Source: Candidatus Saccharicenans sp. (lineage in GTDB: Bacteria; Acidobacteriota; Aminicenantia; Aminicenantales; Saccharicenantaceae). From it: 64,000 nucleotides of DNA. The notes under the pieces were generated by a model. It was given only the letters and a program-made list of their open reading frames with translations, did no database searches and was not told where the DNA came from. The stretch covers positions 1 through 64,000 of the forward strand of contig JAGOPD010000001.1 of the NCBI GenBank assembly GCA_017992175.1. The letters are read 5' to 3'. Of the stretch, positions 23,496 to 38,184 are shown piece after piece. Each line of letters begins with the position of its first letter. The stretch's first letter is position 1. Position numbers and translations under genes: made by a program.

Positions 23496-23570
23496 TGGTA
23501 GGCGCGGAGGGGATTGAACCCACGGCCTCTTCCGCGTCAAGGAAGCGCTCTCCCACTGAGCTACGCGCCT
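23496..23570 (-). tRNA. tRNA-Val (anticodon GAC), CCA encoded
   Basis: The minus strand folds into a complete cloverleaf: acceptor AGGCGCG/CGCGCCT, D stem GCTC/GAGC, anticodon stem CTTCC/GGAAG with loop TTGACGC (anticodon GAC, reading GUC/GUU), and T loop TTCAATC. The T stem GTGGG/CCCTC has one T-T mismatch. The discriminator is A and CCA is encoded (23498-23496). It lies 74 nt upstream of thrS on the same strand and has its own TTGACA promoter. Confidence 0.93.
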
Positions 23571-27939: not shown

Positions 27940-30057
27940 ATGGATAAAGAAAATTTAAAAATTACAGCCATTACCCCTGAAGATATGGCTGTAGTCGAGC
28001 AAGAATTAATCAGGACCAACCGGCCCTGGCCGGCGGCTGAACTGGCCGGGAAGCTGGCTTTTGCCAAGACGGCCAGCGAACGTCATCAGGCTGTTAAAAT
28101 TTATGATTCCAATGCCCGTTATGAAATTGGGGATTTTATCTATAAAGAATATGATGAAAATCTCCAGGTCGGAAGCAAAGCTACCGAGCCTTTTCAGGGC
28201 GGGGTGGTTCTTAAAGTCGTAAATAAGACCAGGCTGCCTAATTTCCCTTATGAAATGCTGGAAGTCGATTATGATGGCGGGGGGCCTTTCCGGCGCTATC
28301 TTGATTACATGAAAAAGACTAAAACCGAGGTCTTGCTGCCCTCCAATCCTGACGGGCAGGGCAAAGAGCCTGAGATCCTTGAGGAGGAACGCGACCCGCG
28401 GCAGACTGAACTACCAATGACGGAAAAGGATATTAAGGCCCTCGAGAGAAACTTGAGAAAAGCCCTGAGCAGCTCACCTGCTTTCTTTAGCTGGAATGAT
28501 TTCTGGCAATTAAGTTCCAAAAGGATTGAGATTCCTGAAGAAAAAATCAAAGAAATTTCAGACGAGTTAGCGGTGGCCCAGTCTTCTCTTTCGACTGAAG
28601 AAATAGTGAAGAAGTATTTTGGCCTGGAGCCATCCAGTGATCTCTTTGAGCTTTATTGTTTGAGTTTAAATGCCTGGCTGGAGAAAAAATACCGCCGTGA
28701 TTTTATCTGCCTATCGACTGCTAACTGGGGCAAGTGGCACCTGAAGAGTGTGCTAAACAGGCTGCCGGAAGGCCTGCCGATTGCCAGTCCACTGGCTTCC
28801 GTCCCCGATCTCGGGCAGGGAGAAGGCCTGCAGTACACCCGGATTGATTCTTTTCCGTTTAAAGTCTATCTGACCTGGCGGGAAATTCTATCCGGGGCAA
28901 TCCGCCTCCCAAGAAGCCTGTCCCGCGAATTTACCTCGAGAGAATATCAGCTTATAGATGACGAAGATGGCAAATCCTATACAGTTTATTATTATCCCGA
29001 GGGGAATTATTTCCTGGGCCTGGGCGAGTATTTCCGGGCCAATAATATTCCTCAGGGAACAAGTCTGACTATTAACCGGAAAGCCCAGGATGCCTTTACT
29101 TTCTGGATCAAGAAATCCAAGAAAAAAACTGCCACCTACCAGCTGGAATATGATCCGGCCACTGGCCGCTTCAGTTTGGCCAAGGAAGAGGTCTTTACCC
29201 TGGCCCTGGCTAATAAGACCCTGAATCTGGACAGAGAAGCAGTAGCTTACTTGCTGGGCAGGCAAGAAGAAAGCCAAGGATTAGATCTGCGGCAGTTGTT
29301 GGTAAAAGTCTTCAAGACACCGGAGCTGACCGGCAATAACCGCTCTTTGCATTTTCTCCGGGCCTACCATCTGGTTGACCTGCTCCAGGCTACAACCGCT
29401 GAAGATGTTGAATATGTACTGAATAATGCTCCTGAATTTGTTGCTTCAGAGAAAAAGGAAGGTATCTATATTTATCAGGAGTCTCTTGAACCGAAGGAAG
29501 TCCCTGTTGAGGAAGAAAAAGCAGCAGCCTCATTTCTGGAATCATTGGTCGAGCAGCTGGCTGGCAGTGGAGCTGAGGCCGGGCCCGAAGTCAGCCAGGA
29601 ATCAGCTGTGACTGAAAAACCGGTGCAGCCCGGGGCTGAAGAGGTAGAAGCAGTAATCCGGGGGCCGGAAGCTGTTATCACCCCTGCTCAGCGGCCTGAA
29701 ATCAAAGTTACTCTCGAGCCGGTTAAAAAGGGCAAAGAAAAAGAGAAAGAAGAGAAGCCGGCTAAAAAGAAGAAAGGGCCAGCTGAAGAGAAAAAGTTCA
29801 AGCCAAAAAAAAGCGACCGGCGGCTGATTGAGGAAAGAATTGTCGAGGAAGAATCTGAAATAGAAGCCCTGGAGGCAGTTAAGGCTCAGAAAGAAGAAGC
29901 AGAGGAAGGAGCTGAAGCTGAGGACAAAACTATCCAGGTTGAACTCGAAGCAGCCAAGCAAGAGGCTAAATTTGGTTTCTTTGCTGAAATGTTGAAATCA
30001 GCCCTGACCAAAAAACAGCCGGAACAGAAAGAAGAAGAACCTGAAGAGAAAAAATAG
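27940..30057 (+). CDS. Large protein of unknown function with charged C-terminal tail
   Basis: I do not recognise this 705-residue protein. The first 530 residues or so look folded and soluble: a mixed alpha/beta N-terminus (residues 1-130, with SNARYEIGDFIYKEYDE), helical parts around 165-260, and a middle region with SYTVYYYPEGNYFLGLGEYF. From about 540 to the end it is low-complexity Lys/Glu/Ala and probably disordered. No signal peptide, membrane helix or nucleotide motif is seen. It starts 3 nt after ornithine carbamoyltransferase, so it is in that operon. The tail resembles those of some RNA- or ribosome-associated proteins only in composition. Confidence 0.75.
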   Translation: MDKENLKITAITPEDMAVVEQELIRTNRPWPAAELAGKLAFAKTASERHQAVKIYDSNARYEIGDFIYKEYDENLQVGSKATEPFQGGVVLKVVNKTRLPNFPYEMLEVDYDGGGPFRRYLDYMKKTKTEVLLPSNPDGQGKEPEILEEERDPRQTELPMTEKDIKALERNLRKALSSSPAFFSWNDFWQLSSKRIEIPEEKIKEISDELAVAQSSLSTEEIVKKYFGLEPSSDLFELYCLSLNAWLEKKYRRDFICLSTANWGKWHLKSVLNRLPEGLPIASPLASVPDLGQGEGLQYTRIDSFPFKVYLTWREILSGAIRLPRSLSREFTSREYQLIDDEDGKSYTVYYYPEGNYFLGLGEYFRANNIPQGTSLTINRKAQDAFTFWIKKSKKKTATYQLEYDPATGRFSLAKEEVFTLALANKTLNLDREAVAYLLGRQEESQGLDLRQLLVKVFKTPELTGNNRSLHFLRAYHLVDLLQATTAEDVEYVLNNAPEFVASEKKEGIYIYQESLEPKEVPVEEEKAAASFLESLVEQLAGSGAEAGPEVSQESAVTEKPVQPGAEEVEAVIRGPEAVITPAQRPEIKVTLEPVKKGKEKEKEEKPAKKKKGPAEEKKFKPKKSDRRLIEERIVEEESEIEALEAVKAQKEEAEEGAEAEDKTIQVELEAAKQEAKFGFFAEMLKSALTKKQPEQKEEEPEEKK

Positions 30058-30077: not shown

Positions 30078-31181
30078 TTAGATTATCAATCTCTTTGAAC
30101 CAAGACGGCGGGTCAGCCCTAACTCATCCAGAAATTCGAGAAGAGGAATAGCATATTTTCTGGACAGCCCGGTCATTTCTTTAAACTCGCTAACCGTTAA
30201 TTCTCTCTGACCATGTTTCTTTTTTTCAGCCAGCTGGTTTTTTATTTCTTCCAGCCAGCTGACTGGCAGGATAAAACCTTCGCGGCTCTCCACTATTTTC
30301 TTTTTCTGAAGAAGAAGTTCAACCATGGTCTCCAGGCGGCTGGGATGGACCTTAAATGTCCTGGCCAGTTCGTCGAGGGAGAAAGCAGAAAACTTCTGGT
30401 CAAGAAGCATCTTTTCGATGGCAGCCATAATCTCATTTTCTTCTGCCGATAAACTGGTTTCAAAACCCCGGAGTGAAACCTGCTCACCGCTGATTTCTAT
30501 TTGCCCATTCTTTAACAGCCGGTTAAGAGCCAGCCAGAGAACTGGCTTTGGAACCCTGAATTTCTCTTTGAGTTTTTTTATTGGGGCCCCGGTTTCCCCT
30601 GGCCGCCGCTGATGATAGTCTTGAATAAAGCTCATCACTTTCCCGGCCAGAAAATCAAAGGTGTTCCTGCTCAGGAGAAAAAGAGGTGAAAATTCCAGGA
30701 TAAAGAGCTGGCCTTCTTTTTCGAGAGCCACCGCTAACTGGCTGAGCCGGGAGGAACCCAACCGGCAAAAAGCTTCCATCTCTGGTTGACGCAGACCTTT
30801 GATCCCGGCCTCTTCGGTCAGGGCCAGCAGCATGGATTTCTCCCCGCCGGCAAATCTATCCAGCCGCTGGATTAGATTTTCCTCTTTTTTTATCTTTTTC
30901 AGCTGGCCAGCCTGGGGGTAAATTACCCTGAGCCAGATGGTCAGCTCAGACCCTGGAAGTTTAAGGTGAAAACTGTCGCCCCATCTGAGGTCAAACGGCA
31001 GGCTGGCTTCTACTCTCAGGTAAGGGAGGTTGAACCTGGGTGAAGCCAGACAGGTGGTCTCTATTTTGGCCTGGAACTGGCCCTGGCTGTTGGTGATCTG
31101 GCCGGTCTTATTTTCTGTCCGGGATATTTCAGGCCATTCCTGACCCGGCAGGGCATAAAAAACGTTCACCATTGAGCTCAT
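30078..31181 (-). CDS. SelB-like protein: C-terminal winged-helix domains without the GTPase
   Basis: This 367-residue protein matches the end of the selenocysteine elongation factor SelB. Residues about 50-110 resemble the last strands of SelB domain III (RWGDSFHLKLPG), and the rest resembles the winged-helix array of domain IV. The end, SRKYAIPLLEFLDELGLTRRLGSKR (residues 340-364), is nearly the SelB consensus for the SECIS-binding wing. The GTPase domain and domain II, roughly 350-400 residues in normal SelB, are missing; there is no P-loop or NKxD. RNase R lies immediately upstream, so the missing half is not adjacent. It may work with a separate GTPase or be a repurposed RNA-binding protein. 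Confidence 0.75.
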   Translation of the reverse strand: MSSMVNVFYALPGQEWPEISRTENKTGQITNSQGQFQAKIETTCLASPRFNLPYLRVEASLPFDLRWGDSFHLKLPGSELTIWLRVIYPQAGQLKKIKKEENLIQRLDRFAGGEKSMLLALTEEAGIKGLRQPEMEAFCRLGSSRLSQLAVALEKEGQLFILEFSPLFLLSRNTFDFLAGKVMSFIQDYHQRRPGETGAPIKKLKEKFRVPKPVLWLALNRLLKNGQIEISGEQVSLRGFETSLSAEENEIMAAIEKMLLDQKFSAFSLDELARTFKVHPSRLETMVELLLQKKKIVESREGFILPVSWLEEIKNQLAEKKKHGQRELTVSEFKEMTGLSRKYAIPLLEFLDELGLTRRLGSKRLII

Positions 31182-31209: not shown

Positions 31210-33273
31210 TTAATCAATTTTATCCGCCAGCCTAAACTCAACCTTTCTTAGAATTGGATTGCAACTGACCATTTTAACTCTCACCTTTTCTCCAAGGGAG
31301 AAGGTAACTCCGCTTCTCCGTCCGCGCAGGGTTTTCTCATCTCTTTTCAGGAAATAGTCATCACCCAGGGCCGAGTAAGGTAACAGGCCGTCTATAAAAT
31401 AGTCATCCAGCTCGACGACCAGTCCTGCCCGGTTGATGTCGGTTATTATCCCGCTGAAGTCCTCGCCCAGTTTGTCTTTGAGCAGGCGCATTATTCTCCA
31501 CTGGATGAGGGATCTTTCGGCCTCATCGGCCAGCCGTTCCCGCTGGGAGCAGTGTAAGGCCAGGTCAGCTAAGGGCAGAGGCCTGGGCTTTTTCCCGGTC
31601 AGGGCTCTTTTTAACAGGCGGTGGACAACCAGATCAGGATAACGCCGGATGGGCGAAGTAAAATGAGCATAAACCGACTGAGCCAGTCCAAAGTGGCCGC
31701 AGTTCTGGTCAGAATAAACTGCCAGCCGCATTGACCTTAGAACCTGAATGGTGATGAATTTTTCTTCAGGCTGGCCTTTAAAAGTTTCAATAATTTTCTG
31801 GAGGTGAGCTGACTTTATCTGGCTGGCCCGCGGCAATTCCAGGCCAAAGTGAACCAGCAGGTTCCTTAATTTTTCCAGGTCGGATCTGGTCGGAGCCGGA
31901 TGAACCCGGTAGAGACAGCCATAATCAAGTTCAGTTAGATAGGTGGCGACCGCCACATTGGCCGCTAACATAAATTCTTCAACCAGGCAATGGGCCTCAT
32001 TTCGCTCGGAAGGAACCACCGCTGTCAGCAGTCCTTCCCGGTAGACCAGTTCCGGCTCGAGTAAATCAAAATCCAGACTGCCCTGCTTGAGCCGGCGGGC
32101 TTTAAGCACCTGAGCCAGATGCCTCATGACGAACAAATCGTTGAGAAGATAACTGTAGCGCCCCCGTTCCTCTGGATCTCCCTGAAAAATTTTATAGACG
32201 GAAGTATAGGTCATTCTCTCCGAGGTCTGAATAATTGACGGGTGAAAATCAGTCTGAATAATGTCGCCTCTCTCATCTATTTCTATTACAGCTGAGACGG
32301 TCAAGCGGGGGACCCTGGGTCTCAAGCTGCATAAATCGTTGGACAATTTTTCAGGCAGCATAGGCAAAGTTAGATCCGGAAAATAAACGCTGGTTCCACG
32401 AAGGTAAGCTTCCTGGTCAAGTGGAGAACCTGGTTTGACATAATGAGAGACGTCAGCAATATGGACTCCCAGGAGATAATGGCCATTGGCCAGTTTCTTG
32501 ATGCTCAGGGCATCATCAAAATCCTGGGCTTTCTCTCCATCAATGGTGATGGTTATCCAGCCCCGATAATCTACTCGGCCAGCAAAATCTTCAGGCCGGG
32601 GCGCGGCTGGCAGGGCCGCGGCTTCAGCCAGTGCTTCCCGCCCAAACTTGTCCAGCAGGTTATACTGGTTTATCACCACTTTAAGATCTACTTCTGGTTC
32701 GTCCTGATAGCCAAGTATTTTTTTTACTTCTAAGGACTGACGATCGATTTCGATTATCTGACCTGGTTTCGGTCTCTGCCGGCTTCTCAGTTTAACCAGA
32801 AATGGTTCTTCATGAACTGTGTCCAGGGGGAGAGCAAAAGGCTGATAATTAATTTCAAGATACAACCCGAAAATTGCAGTCCGGCCCCTTTTTAATATTC
32901 TGGTCACCCGTCCTTCTGCTTTGCCTTTCGGCCCGTCTTCTCTGACCATGACCTCAACCAGGTCGCCGGTCAGGGCTCCCGCCGTCTGACCGGGAGGAAT
33001 AAAAATATCGGCTGAACTGCCTTCAGCAGTCTCCGGGGTAACAAAAGCGAAACCGCGCTTGTTTAAAGAGATAATCCCCCGGCCGATTTTATTCCGGGGG
33101 AGGGCCTGAACTTTATCACCCTTCAGTTTGAGGAGTCCTTTTTTATCCAGATAGCCAAGCAGCCCCTTTAATTTTCTCCTTTCGGTTTTATTCAGGTTGA
33201 GGCTCCTGGCCAGTTTTACCAAACTAACCGGGTTCTTATTTTTTTCTAAATATTCAATTATTTCCTTTTCCAT
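31210..33273 (-). CDS. rnr: Ribonuclease R (RNB-family 3'-5' exoribonuclease)
   Basis: This 687-residue processive exoribonuclease degrades structured RNA. It has an N-terminal helix-turn-helix (residues 1-60), cold-shock domains (GRGIISLNKRGFAFVTPE), the RNB catalytic domain with TITIDGEKAQDFDDALSI and LGVHIADVSHYV, the HFTSPIRRYPDLVVHRLL segment, and a C-terminal S1 domain (GIITDINRAGLVVEL). The catalytic Asp cluster is intact. GAAGGAAAA precedes the ATG. The length fits a short RNase R lacking the long basic tail. Confidence 0.95.
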   Translation of the reverse strand: MEKEIIEYLEKNKNPVSLVKLARSLNLNKTERRKLKGLLGYLDKKGLLKLKGDKVQALPRNKIGRGIISLNKRGFAFVTPETAEGSSADIFIPPGQTAGALTGDLVEVMVREDGPKGKAEGRVTRILKRGRTAIFGLYLEINYQPFALPLDTVHEEPFLVKLRSRQRPKPGQIIEIDRQSLEVKKILGYQDEPEVDLKVVINQYNLLDKFGREALAEAAALPAAPRPEDFAGRVDYRGWITITIDGEKAQDFDDALSIKKLANGHYLLGVHIADVSHYVKPGSPLDQEAYLRGTSVYFPDLTLPMLPEKLSNDLCSLRPRVPRLTVSAVIEIDERGDIIQTDFHPSIIQTSERMTYTSVYKIFQGDPEERGRYSYLLNDLFVMRHLAQVLKARRLKQGSLDFDLLEPELVYREGLLTAVVPSERNEAHCLVEEFMLAANVAVATYLTELDYGCLYRVHPAPTRSDLEKLRNLLVHFGLELPRASQIKSAHLQKIIETFKGQPEEKFITIQVLRSMRLAVYSDQNCGHFGLAQSVYAHFTSPIRRYPDLVVHRLLKRALTGKKPRPLPLADLALHCSQRERLADEAERSLIQWRIMRLLKDKLGEDFSGIITDINRAGLVVELDDYFIDGLLPYSALGDDYFLKRDEKTLRGRRSGVTFSLGEKVRVKMVSCNPILRKVEFRLADKID

Positions 33274-33329: not shown

Positions 33330-33968
33330 TTAATAATAAAAAAGAGAGACATAAGGAATCTGGCTGGCCTGTCTTCTGGCCTTAATCAGTCTGGTTTGCT
33401 GAATTTCAGCCAGGAGAGAAGCTGGCTTTCCCGGAAAATCCAGTTGAACCTCCTTGAAACTTGCCTGTTTCTCTTCCTCCGGGGCCAGCTCAAAAAGACG
33501 CCGGTCAATTTCCTCATCCAGCTCTTCCAGTTTATTTTCGTCAGGCTCAGGGCTCCCCAGCAGGGCCAGAGCCTGTTTAAATAATTCCCTTAAGTCCTCG
33601 AATTCAGCCGGAAGTTGCCCGAGGAAAGCCTCTACCTCAATCCTGGCTTTATTTTTCTTTTCACCTGGTTCAATTCTGGGCGCAGCCTGACCCACCAGCC
33701 GGTCTTGATAGCTGGCATAAGCCTTCAGGACTTCTTTTTCACACTGACTCAGTGAATAAATATTCCGTTTTTTTCTTCTTTTGAGCTGTCTCGAGAAAGT
33801 TTGATCAATTCCCTCTAGAATGGGCTCCAGTGGAATACCCAGCTTTTCCCAATCAGAAATCAAAGCCAGATCGCGCGGGGGCAGGAAGAACATGGCTGTC
33901 TGGTGCTTTAGAAATTGGCGGACTATTTGCTGATAATAGTCCTGGCGGCTGGCTTCGTCTGGCTTCAT
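33330..33968 (-). CDS. Conserved hypothetical protein
   Basis: This 212-residue soluble protein starts with a segment reminiscent of an unnamed family seen in Deltaproteobacteria- and Acidobacteria-like genomes (FLPPRDLALISDWEKLGIPLEPILEGIDQTF). A basic stretch (RQLKRRKKRN) follows, then an acidic, helical second half. No catalytic or membrane motif is visible. It overlaps coaX by 4 nt and lies 56 nt before RNase R, so it is part of the valS-birA-coaX operon. I assign no function. Confidence 0.7.
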   Translation of the reverse strand: MKPDEASRQDYYQQIVRQFLKHQTAMFFLPPRDLALISDWEKLGIPLEPILEGIDQTFSRQLKRRKKRNIYSLSQCEKEVLKAYASYQDRLVGQAAPRIEPGEKKNKARIEVEAFLGQLPAEFEDLRELFKQALALLGSPEPDENKLEELDEEIDRRLFELAPEEEKQASFKEVQLDFPGKPASLLAEIQQTRLIKARRQASQIPYVSLFYY

Positions 33969-34744
33969 TTTTTCTCCCGGCGGCGGTTCTTTTCATAGAG
34001 GAGCCTCAGCCCTTCAAGGACCAGGTTGGGCTCGACCTGATTGATGGCCTTAATCTCCGGGGCGATCAGGTCAGCCTGCCCGCCCGTGGCAATGACCGTC
34101 GGCCTGGATTGAAGCTCAGCCGACATCTCGGCAATAATTTGATTGACCAGCCCTATATAACCGAAATAAAGGCCTGATTGCATGCTGGCCACAGTATTCC
34201 GGCCAATAGCTGTTCTGGGTTTTTTAATTTCGATCCGGGGCAGGCGGGCCGTCCGAAGATAGAGAGCTTCAGCTGAAATCTGAATTCCGGGAGCAATTGA
34301 TCCACCCAGGTATTCGCCGGCGGCTGAGATGGCATCAAAAGTAGTAGCAGTCCCGAAATCTACTACCAGACAGGGGCCACCATATTTTTCATAAGCGGCA
34401 CAGGCCGCCACAATCCGGTCAGAACCAACTTCGGCCGGGTTTTCATAAAGAATTGGCAGGCCAGTCTTAAGACCGGAACCAACCAGCAGCGGCTTGACCT
34501 TAAAAAATCTCTCGACGGCCTGCTGAATGACCGGGGTAAGGGGTGGAACAACTGAAGAGATAATTGCTCCTTTGATTTTCTGTGAGGTTAGCTTTTCATG
34601 GCCAAGCAAGCTGGAAAGAATCAGGCCATATTCATCGGCAGTCTTTTCCCGGTCGCTTTTGATTTTCCAGTTAGCCAGTAGCTTCCTGGCCTGGTAGACA
34701 CCAAGAGCAATGGTCGTATTGCCGATATCAAGAACCATGATCAT
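33965..34744 (-). CDS. coaX: Type III pantothenate kinase
   Basis: This 259-residue enzyme phosphorylates pantothenate in the first step of coenzyme A synthesis. It shows VLDIGNTTIALGVY (phosphate loop), SSVVPPLTPVI, GSDRIVAACAAYEKYGGPCLVVDFGTATTFDAIS and GGSIAPGIQISAEAL, all typical of CoaX. An alternative ATG is two codons downstream; GGAG precedes the first. The adjacent birA gene is a common neighbour of coaX in bacteria. Confidence 0.95.
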   Translation of the reverse strand: MIMVLDIGNTTIALGVYQARKLLANWKIKSDREKTADEYGLILSSLLGHEKLTSQKIKGAIISSVVPPLTPVIQQAVERFFKVKPLLVGSGLKTGLPILYENPAEVGSDRIVAACAAYEKYGGPCLVVDFGTATTFDAISAAGEYLGGSIAPGIQISAEALYLRTARLPRIEIKKPRTAIGRNTVASMQSGLYFGYIGLVNQIIAEMSAELQSRPTVIATGGQADLIAPEIKAINQVEPNLVLEGLRLLYEKNRRREKK

Positions 34745-34756
34745 TGTTTTCTCCTG

Positions 34757-35518
34757 TTAATCATTTCCATCCATGACTTTAATTATTTCCGAAGCATAAT
34801 ATTTTTTATTTTCCTGGCCGGTTTGGAGGATTAAACTTCCATCCTGACCAAGGCTGATAAACTGACCCTTCACTTGGCCGGCTGGCTCCTGGATGATTAG
34901 AGTCTGGCCTGGAGAGAAGCAAAGTTTTTTCTCCAGCCTGCCGATAATTAGATCCGCCTGCCCTTCCTTAAGCTTATTATACCAGAACTGCAGTTCCTTA
35001 CCAAGGAGCTGGAATAATTCTTCTGGCTGATAATTCTGGCCGCTGGCCAGATAAAGCGAACTGGCCAGACTGGCCACTCCGGCTGGAAAATCTTCCTGGC
35101 GGTGATTTAAGTTTATACCAAAACCAGCCACGACATAAGACTGACCGGCCTGAGTGGTCTGGCTTTCGCATAAAATTCCGCCGATTTTTCTGCCTTTAAA
35201 CAGCAAATCGTTGGGCCATTTTAAATTAATGTTTACGCCGGCCAGCTTGTCTATAGCCTCTGCTGCAGCCAGGCCGGCAGTCAGCGGTACCAGATTTAAA
35301 AAAGCCACCGGTGGCCGGAGAAGAAAAGAAACATAGAGCCCTTTTTTGGCGGGCGAGTGCCAGTGGCGGCCTCTGGTCCCCCGGCCGGCTGATTGTTCAT
35401 CAGCTAAAACCGCTGTTCCTTCTGGAAAACCAAGCCGGGCCAGTGTCCGGCCAAAGTCCATGGTGGAACTCAGACTGGCAAATCTAAAAGACAACTCGCC
35501 AAAATTTATAGCTTCCAT
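34757..35518 (-). CDS. birA: Biotin--[acetyl-CoA-carboxylase] ligase, without DNA-binding domain
   Basis: This 253-residue protein activates biotin as biotinyl-AMP and attaches it to carrier-protein lysines. Catalytic motifs are GRGTRGRHWHSPAKKGLYVSFLLRP, LKWPNDLLFKGRKIGGILCE and VAGFGINLNHR. The N-terminal helix-turn-helix of repressor-type BirA is absent, since the catalytic fold starts at about residue 10, so it should be a pure ligase. A C-terminal SH3-like domain is present. It sits 12 nt upstream of coaX. Confidence 0.94.
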   Translation of the reverse strand: MEAINFGELSFRFASLSSTMDFGRTLARLGFPEGTAVLADEQSAGRGTRGRHWHSPAKKGLYVSFLLRPPVAFLNLVPLTAGLAAAEAIDKLAGVNINLKWPNDLLFKGRKIGGILCESQTTQAGQSYVVAGFGINLNHRQEDFPAGVASLASSLYLASGQNYQPEELFQLLGKELQFWYNKLKEGQADLIIGRLEKKLCFSPGQTLIIQEPAGQVKGQFISLGQDGSLILQTGQENKKYYASEIIKVMDGND

Positions 35519-35547: not shown

Positions 35548-38184
35548 TTATGATTTTTTCAATTGAGATAAACTTTTAAGCAGCTTTTCTCTCTTCAGCT
35601 GAAGTTCCTGTTGCCGCTGCTGATGTTCGGCTACCACGGCTTGAGGCGCTTTTTGCTTGAAATCTGGATTCTCCAGACGGAAGACGAGTTTGGTTAAATC
35701 TTCTTCGAGACGGGCCAGCTCTTTTTCTAACCGCTCGATTTCCGGAGCGCTGTCAATAGCCCGGGCCAGCTGCAGTCCGATTTCGGTTGTTCCAGCCACG
35801 CCCTTGAGTAGATTATTGGCGGCCGGCATTTCGGTGACATATTCAATTCTATCAACGCCAGCCAGCTGCCTGATGGCTTCCTCATACGAACCGGCCAGGC
35901 TGTGACTTTTCTTTCCTTCGCTTATCCAGAGATTGACTTTCTCTTTAACCGGCAGCTGGTTTTCAGCCCTGATCGTCCGGATTTCAGAGATAAGAGCCTG
36001 CAGAAACTTCATCGTCTCTTCAGCTTCCTCATCCAGCCAGCGGCGATTGGCTTCGGGCCAGCTCTCGGTCAGTAAGGACAGGCCGCTCTCCGGCAGATGA
36101 TGCCAGATTTCCTCGGTGATAAACGGCATAAAAGGATGCAGAAGCTTTAGAATCTTATCGAGAGTGTCTTCCATCACTGCCTGAGTATTTTTGTTACCCT
36201 CCTTGAGTTCGGGCTTGATAAATTCGATATACCAGTCGCAGAATTCATGCCAGATAAAGTGATAAATAGTTTCGGCCGCCTCATAGAACTTATAGTTCTT
36301 CAGCGACTCATTTAATTGCTCAGTTACCTTAGTCAGGCGACTGCGGATCCAGCGGTTGGGCAGGGAAAGAGCCTGCTGGTCAGGCTCGATTGTTTCTTCG
36401 CCCAGGTTCATCAGGACAAAACGGGAGGCGTTCCAGATTTTATTGGCGAAAGCCCGGTAGCCGGCCATTCTTTCCTCAGAAAGAGCAATGTCCATCCCGG
36501 GGACAGCTAAAGAAGCTAAGGTGAAGCGCAGAGCATCTGTCCCGTATTTATCGATCATTTCCAGCGGGTCAATGATATTGCCTTCGGATTTACTCATCTT
36601 TCTTTTTTTAAGATCCCGGACCAGACCATTGATAAAGACTTCTCTAAAAGGAACATCCTTCATAAATTTAAGGCCCATCATAATCATCCGTGCTACCCAG
36701 AAGAAAATGATGTCGAATCCAGTTGACATCAAATCGGTCGGATAGAAGACTTTGAGATCTTCCGTCTTTTCTGGCCAGCCCAGGGTGGCAAAAGGCCACA
36801 GAGCAGAGGAAAACCAGGTATCAAGAACATCTTCATCCTGGACCACCGGTCCACCGCACTTCTCGCAGGCGGCTGGCCTGTCCATAGCTACCATAACCTG
36901 GTGGCAGTTCTGACAGTAATAGGCCGGAATACGGTGTCCCCACCACAGCTGCCGGGAAATACACCAATCATGAATTTTATACATCCAGTCAAAATAGGTC
37001 TTGGCCCAGTTCTCCGGGATAAAAACAATTTTGCCGTCTTCAACAGCCCTGATGGCTTCTTTGGCCAGTGGCTCGATTTTGACAAACCATTGCCAGGAAA
37101 GATGGGGCTCGATAACCGTTTTGCAGCGATAGCAATGTCCAACCGCATGGCTGTAATCCTCAACTTTAACCAGATAGCCAAGCTGTTTGAGCTTTTCAAC
37201 TACTTTTTCCCGGCAGGCGAAACGATCGAGGCCCTTAAATTCTTCCCCGGCTGCTTCAGTCATCCGGCCGTTGCCATCAATGACGATAATCTGCTCCAAA
37301 CCATGCTTTTTACCCAGTTCAAAGTCAACCGGGTCATGAGCTGGCGTGACTTTAACTGCTCCGGTCCCGAAATCTTTTTGGACCTGTTCGTCAGTGATGA
37401 CCGGAATAAGCCGGTTCTGAAGCGGCAGCAGAACTTTCCGGCCATGAAACTTTTTATAACGTTCATCATCGGGATGAACAGCTACGGCAGTATCGCCCAG
37501 CATCGTCTCGGGCCGGGTGGTGGCTACGACGACGGCCTCATCAGTGCCGGGTAAAGGATATTTTATGTACCAGAGATGGCCCTTAACTTCCTGATGCTCG
37601 ATTTCAATATCGGAGAGAACGGTCTGGCAGCGGGGGCAGCGGTTAACCAGATAGTAATCGCGGTAGATCAGGCCCTCCTGGTAAAGAGAGACAAAAACAT
37701 AATTAACCGCCCTGGAAAAACCCTCATCGAGGGTAAATCTTTCCCGTGACCAATCGAGCGAACAGCCCAGGCGCTTGAGCTGCTCAGTTATGACGCCGCC
37801 GTATTTTTCCTTCCATTCCCAGGCCAGACGCAGAAATTCCTGGCGGCCAACATTTTCCCGGCTAAGACCCTTAGTTTTTAAACTCTGCTCGATGACATTG
37901 TGAACGGCAATTGAAGCATGATCAGTTCCGGGCAGCCACATGGTGTTATAACCCTGCATTTTTTTCCAGCGGACAATGATATCAGGCAGGGTAAAGCACA
38001 GAGCATGACCCATATGAAGGACCCCGGTCACGTTGGGCGGGGGCAAGACCAGGGAAAATTTGGGTTTATCGGATTTTATCTGGCCTTCAAATAGCTTTTC
38101 CTCCAGCCAGAATTTTGACCATTTCGCTTCGACCGGTTTCGGGTCATAGGCTTTTTCTACAACTTTCTTTTCTCTTGTCGTCAT
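35548..38184 (-). CDS. valS: Valine--tRNA ligase
   Basis: This 878-residue class I synthetase charges tRNA-Val. The HIGH motif is HMGH in PPPNVTGVLHMGHAL and the KMSKS motif is KMSKSEGN. The CP1 editing domain (TTRPETMLGDTAVAVHPDD), a zinc-like CxxC pair (CQNCHQ...CEKCGG) and the C-terminal coiled-coil arm (last 65 residues) are present. GGGGAG precedes the ATG. The gene begins one base after the receiver-like gene ends and is followed by birA after 29 nt. Confidence 0.97.
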   Translation of the reverse strand: MTTREKKVVEKAYDPKPVEAKWSKFWLEEKLFEGQIKSDKPKFSLVLPPPNVTGVLHMGHALCFTLPDIIVRWKKMQGYNTMWLPGTDHASIAVHNVIEQSLKTKGLSRENVGRQEFLRLAWEWKEKYGGVITEQLKRLGCSLDWSRERFTLDEGFSRAVNYVFVSLYQEGLIYRDYYLVNRCPRCQTVLSDIEIEHQEVKGHLWYIKYPLPGTDEAVVVATTRPETMLGDTAVAVHPDDERYKKFHGRKVLLPLQNRLIPVITDEQVQKDFGTGAVKVTPAHDPVDFELGKKHGLEQIIVIDGNGRMTEAAGEEFKGLDRFACREKVVEKLKQLGYLVKVEDYSHAVGHCYRCKTVIEPHLSWQWFVKIEPLAKEAIRAVEDGKIVFIPENWAKTYFDWMYKIHDWCISRQLWWGHRIPAYYCQNCHQVMVAMDRPAACEKCGGPVVQDEDVLDTWFSSALWPFATLGWPEKTEDLKVFYPTDLMSTGFDIIFFWVARMIMMGLKFMKDVPFREVFINGLVRDLKKRKMSKSEGNIIDPLEMIDKYGTDALRFTLASLAVPGMDIALSEERMAGYRAFANKIWNASRFVLMNLGEETIEPDQQALSLPNRWIRSRLTKVTEQLNESLKNYKFYEAAETIYHFIWHEFCDWYIEFIKPELKEGNKNTQAVMEDTLDKILKLLHPFMPFITEEIWHHLPESGLSLLTESWPEANRRWLDEEAEETMKFLQALISEIRTIRAENQLPVKEKVNLWISEGKKSHSLAGSYEEAIRQLAGVDRIEYVTEMPAANNLLKGVAGTTEIGLQLARAIDSAPEIERLEKELARLEEDLTKLVFRLENPDFKQKAPQAVVAEHQQRQQELQLKREKLLKSLSQLKKS

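Follow-up and report, generated by a model that had tools for sequence, protein, structure and literature searches.

What is left of the selenocysteine (Sec) elongation factor SelB when its GTPase half is gone, and what could the remainder do? The question is raised by an intact open reading frame (ORF) of 367 aa, running from ATG through stop at positions 30078..31181 (-) of the window, by which we mean the whole stretch of 64,000 nucleotides from a Candidatus Saccharicenans contig that was analyzed. It encodes a stand-alone SelB C-terminal protein made of domain III and domain IV. The first-pass annotation had read it as an intact SelB homologue lacking the GTPase half, which is right and holds class-wide, with Pfam, PDB, and the structural model all giving SelB first. 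Comparison with profiles of SelB domain IV returned SelB-wing_3 (E 2.5e-18, residues 326-365 of the 367) and SelB-wing_2 (E 3.2e-7), and the best solved relative by sequence is the Moorella thermoacetica SelB C-terminal fragment 1lva (PDB; E 6e-20, residues 128-367). In the NCBIfam selB model, the protein covers only positions 446-578 of 581, scoring 34.9 bits where the cut-off is 242; since the match is confined to these positions, the GTPase part is missing. Neither an EF-Tu-like GTPase domain (P-loop, NKxD) nor domain II was found in the 367-aa protein, whose alignment starts at SelB residue 268, the domain II/III boundary. The protein belongs firmly to the SelB domain III-IV superfamily, and it fails as a SelB elongation factor, being without GTPase, domain II, and Sec genes.

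The N-terminal part proved more complete than annotated at first. Of domain III, only the end had been recognized, whereas the whole fold has been kept. Profile-profile comparison maps residues 1-112 onto SelB 268-376 (E 1.5e-7; column-shuffled controls, E of at least 0.26), and the stand-alone family as a whole aligns with the whole of SelB beyond the domain II/III boundary (probability 100, E 1.8e-42). Additionally, one orthologue (L099) matches the domain III family PF25461 (E 4.3e-6). We therefore assign residues 1-95 (30897..31181, -) to a divergent SelB domain III beta-barrel, in agreement with the strands of the AlphaFold2 model. Four winged helices follow: winged helix 1 (WH1; residues ~96-172, with an approximate boundary; 30666..30896, -) and WH3 (residues ~241-306; 30264..30461, -), both defined by the PDB sequence match, the AlphaFold2 model, and structure search; and WH2 (PF09106; residues ~173-240; 30462..30665, -), which is basic with a net charge of +6, and WH4 (PF09107; residues ~307-367; 30081..30263, -), both defined by Pfam. 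The model, built from 40 orthologues, has a mean pLDDT of 89.3 and a pTM of 0.73 and includes the N-terminal beta domain. Its twelve best structural matches in the PDB are all SelB (1lva at E 2.4e-16), and its WH3-WH4 portion superimposes on SECIS-bound 1wsu with a TM score of 0.86 normalized to the target and an rmsd of ~2.1. Non-SelB multi-winged-helix proteins (TFIIIC and UFL1) match far more weakly, so that no unrelated family of this kind is preferred.

Within the stand-alone family, WH4 is conserved best, with a mean majority frequency of 0.70 versus 0.37-0.57 elsewhere. It ends in the signature SRKYAIPLLEFLDELGLTRRLGSKRLII (residues 340-367; 30081..30164, -), which is common to SECIS-binding SelB and confirms the C-terminal SECIS-binding signature noted in the first-pass annotation together with the winged-helix array. 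The equivalents of M. thermoacetica R606, K607, E614, D617, T622, and R624 are invariant in the proteins of the order and common to full-length SelB. R341 corresponds to R606, which we take from the work on 1wsu to be a SECIS-contacting residue, and this position is 100% Arg across stand-alone and full-length SelB. Judged from sequence, these invariant residues may reflect a constraint of the fold as well as RNA contact, and true SECIS binding by the stand-alone protein appears doubtful where the Sec machinery is absent.

The genomic context is conserved in part. The rnr gene (RNase R; 31210..33273, -; RNB domain, E 1.3e-111) lies 28 bp upstream, probably in the same operon given the conserved adjacency. 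It is preceded by u212 (33330..33968, -), whose conserved 212-aa product matches neither Pfam nor NCBIfam, coaX (type III pantothenate kinase; 33965..34744, -; PF03309, E 1.7e-76), a birA-like gene (34757..35518, -), and valS (35548..38184, -), the last two read from the sequence without a profile. Downstream is a convergent 705-aa ORF, and no GTPase gene adjoins the 367-aa ORF on either side; the coding context beside rnr, with the GTPase half not adjacent, had been described correctly. The layout valS-birA-coaX-u212-rnr-selBC is order-wide, with the stand-alone gene (selBC) on the rnr strand, often with a 4-bp overlap. Among 40 sampled loci, rnr is directly adjacent in 27 and nearby on the same strand in 31. 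A single gene, which by its sequence looks like glucose-6-phosphate isomerase, separates the two in families f5, f7, and f9, and the link to rnr is lost in family f6. Because valS, coaX, and birA are housekeeping neighbors without a functional theme, the adjacency of rnr may be historical. The 705-aa ORF (27940-30057, +), which converges on the SelB-like gene, is conserved behind arcC and OTC throughout the order; it has no NCBIfam match, a sub-threshold Pfam B3 match (E 0.003), and an acidic, lysine-rich C-terminal tail. The sole Rfam match near the locus is a tRNA gene (window positions 23499-23570, -; RF00005, 65.5 bits).

Two alternative roles can be weighed against this conservation. Winged helices bind DNA too, and in bacteria mostly do so; the array could thus have been repurposed as a DNA-binding regulator controlling, for example, its own operon, and some orthologues do give weak MarR and HTH model scores. 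However, the best conserved part of the family is the SelB WH4 surface, which binds RNA in 1wsu, 2uwm, and 2ply, and the neighboring genes encode RNA or housekeeping enzymes, so that we consider a DNA-binding regulator unlikely. The protein could instead be a ribosome-associated factor, placing domains III-IV near the A site or mRNA entry as in SelB; it would then modulate ribosome rescue or how structured mRNAs are translated, and RNase R would be its nuclease partner. The adjacency of rnr and an alignment that spans domains III-IV of ribosome-bound full SelB (5lzb; 365 alignment columns with the model) would fit this role. It is made improbable, to a similar degree, by the loss of domain III in two lineages, namely, family f4 (L087, L102, L109, and L111; 257-273 aa) and genome G162 (L081; 255 aa), in both of which the winged-helix array stays. 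Domain III has thus been lost at least twice. Length also varies in the other direction: family f5 (L092-L094, L029, and L030) has 470-aa versions with ~100 extra conserved N-terminal residues. Their comparison with domain II (E 0.0035) weakly suggests a degenerate domain II remnant, and the AlphaFold2 model of the 470-aa variant is poor (pLDDT 56).

The distribution of the protein and of the Sec genes bears on a third explanation, a split SelB whose GTPase half is encoded elsewhere, the two halves assembling for Sec decoding. SelB-wing_3 was detected in 134 of 142 Aminicenantia genomes and in all 51 genera (51/51); in the genus of the window, all 19 genomes carry exactly one match, in frames of 366-421 aa. 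SelA, in contrast, is above the cut-off in only 34 of the 142 class genomes (about a quarter), and SelD in 38. Consequently, in at least 100 genomes a SelB-type domain IV is present but no SelA is detectable. A scan of genome contigs with the single protein matched only Candidatus Aminicenantes UBA6228, which is close to the window assembly and whose stand-alone protein is 96% identical; none was found among the viral contigs scanned, and the plasmid matches were ordinary SelB or unannotated, mostly selB.

A split SelB was among the possibilities raised in the first-pass annotation, and the start of the protein falls cleanly on the SelB domain II/III boundary, as such a split would have it. 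Against it, neither selA nor selD exceeds the cut-off in any of the 19 genus genomes (0/19 for each), and relatives at least 90% complete yielded neither selA nor selD, nor an N-terminal half of SelB. In 11 genus genomes, nothing scores above the cut-off of the selB model, and in length the GTPase matches correspond to EF-Tu, EF-G, LepA, and IF2. Furthermore, tRNA-Sec scores above 57 bits occur almost wholly within genomes with Sec genes; the remaining scores, at ~52 bits or less, match those of control genomes without Sec and seem to come from other tRNAs with long arms, and no score above 52 bits occurs in the genus. The sampled SelA genomes also encode a separate full-length SelB of ~640 aa already. 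Taken with these results, a split SelB is very improbable. One genome (G300) has two SelB-wing_3 matches in frames of full-length size in addition to the stand-alone form. A 289-aa short frame from outside the class (G071) was rejected as a stand-alone form, as it overlaps a longer ORF that opens with the SelB GTPase start and represents a broken or frame-shifted full-length SelB.

The phylogeny places the stand-alone proteins apart. When 79 domain III-IV sequences were placed in a tree, a branch with support of 100/99 parted all 53 stand-alone proteins from the 26 full-length SelB of the phylum. The stand-alone clade persists at 98/94 in a second tree, to which SelB of Escherichia coli, Burkholderia, Moorella, Pusillibacter, Ilyobacter, and Tsukamurella were added. 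The full-length SelB of Aminicenantia form another clade (100/99-100), to which the stand-alone proteins are not closest; with long branches, the exact sister of the stand-alone clade is left unplaced. This separate clade means one old truncation and not repeated decay of the local selB. The stand-alone gene is under purifying selection, with a dN/dS of 0.12 for the closest pair (nearest species) and 0.09-0.30 over the pairs with measurable dS. That the gene is a pseudogene or a relic left from a Sec system since lost, or the mis-assembled selB fragment that the first-pass annotation had considered, is effectively excluded by conservation and dN/dS: although the window assembly (1.38 Mb) is just 63% complete, intact orthologues in identical gene order recur in many independent assemblies, selection maintains them, and their clade stands apart from a full-length SelB that coexists in some genomes.

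These results show that a SelB was stripped of its G domain and domain II before Aminicenantia diversified and that domain III and the four winged helices (later, in some lineages, the winged helices alone) were kept independently of Sec decoding. This ancient stand-alone derivative of SelB probably binds hairpin RNA and acts independently of Sec, for instance as an RNA chaperone, adaptor, or translational regulator. WH4 would still bind hairpin RNA via the surface that SelB uses for SECIS, and the missing G domain and domain II would preclude GTP-driven tRNA delivery, so that a hairpin-binding chaperone, adaptor, or translational regulator acting on cellular RNAs appears most likely. Of the options in the first-pass annotation, an RNA-binding regulator or a repurposed factor that binds RNA thus remains the best, if inferred, reading, with SECIS itself a doubtful ligand where the Sec machinery is missing. 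More speculatively, and guessing from gene order, the protein might be a partner of RNase R, encoded just upstream in most lineages, for instance in marking or protecting structured RNAs. It is possible, although we hold this only tentatively, that a SECIS-reading arm became, class-wide, a general hairpin-RNA binder that acts with RNase R in controlling translation or degrading RNA, which would constitute a regulator family derived from the Sec machinery.

Compared with known systems, the stand-alone protein shares with bacterial SelB (M. thermoacetica 1lva, 1wsu, and 2uwm) domain III and WH1-WH4, in the same order and with the same fold, as well as the WH4 signature (SRKY..PLLE.LD....TRR.G..R.). 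It differs in having no G domain or domain II, in occurring without SelA, SelC, and SelD, in its rnr context, and in its separate clade. The full-length SelB of Sec-using Aminicenantia (e.g., genomes G072 and G216) has the same domain IV and occurs partly in the same genomes, but it carries the GTPase and is linked to selA, selD, and tRNA-Sec. We know of no archaeal or eukaryotic Sec decoding in which the SECIS-binding role lies in a bacterial-type SelB domain IV. Unrelated proteins serve there, whereas the arm in Aminicenantia is a genuine domain IV of SelB that has been separated from its GTPase. The C-terminal domains of EFSec differ (PMC13188914). In the openly accessible literature, we found no published description of a stand-alone SelB domain IV.

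It has been proposed that SelB is the signature by which Sec decoding can be recognized (PMC1794560). For detection based on domain IV, this rule is broken by a SelB-derived protein that is near-universal in organisms without Sec, and false calls of Sec use would follow. Since the SelB arm is near-universal in Aminicenantia even without the Sec machinery, its reuse as an independent RNA-binding protein is suggested. The RNA-reading half of SelB can persist by itself for as long as a bacterial class has existed. In a group seen mostly through metagenomes, it provides a defined, testable candidate for a new family of RNA-binding proteins.
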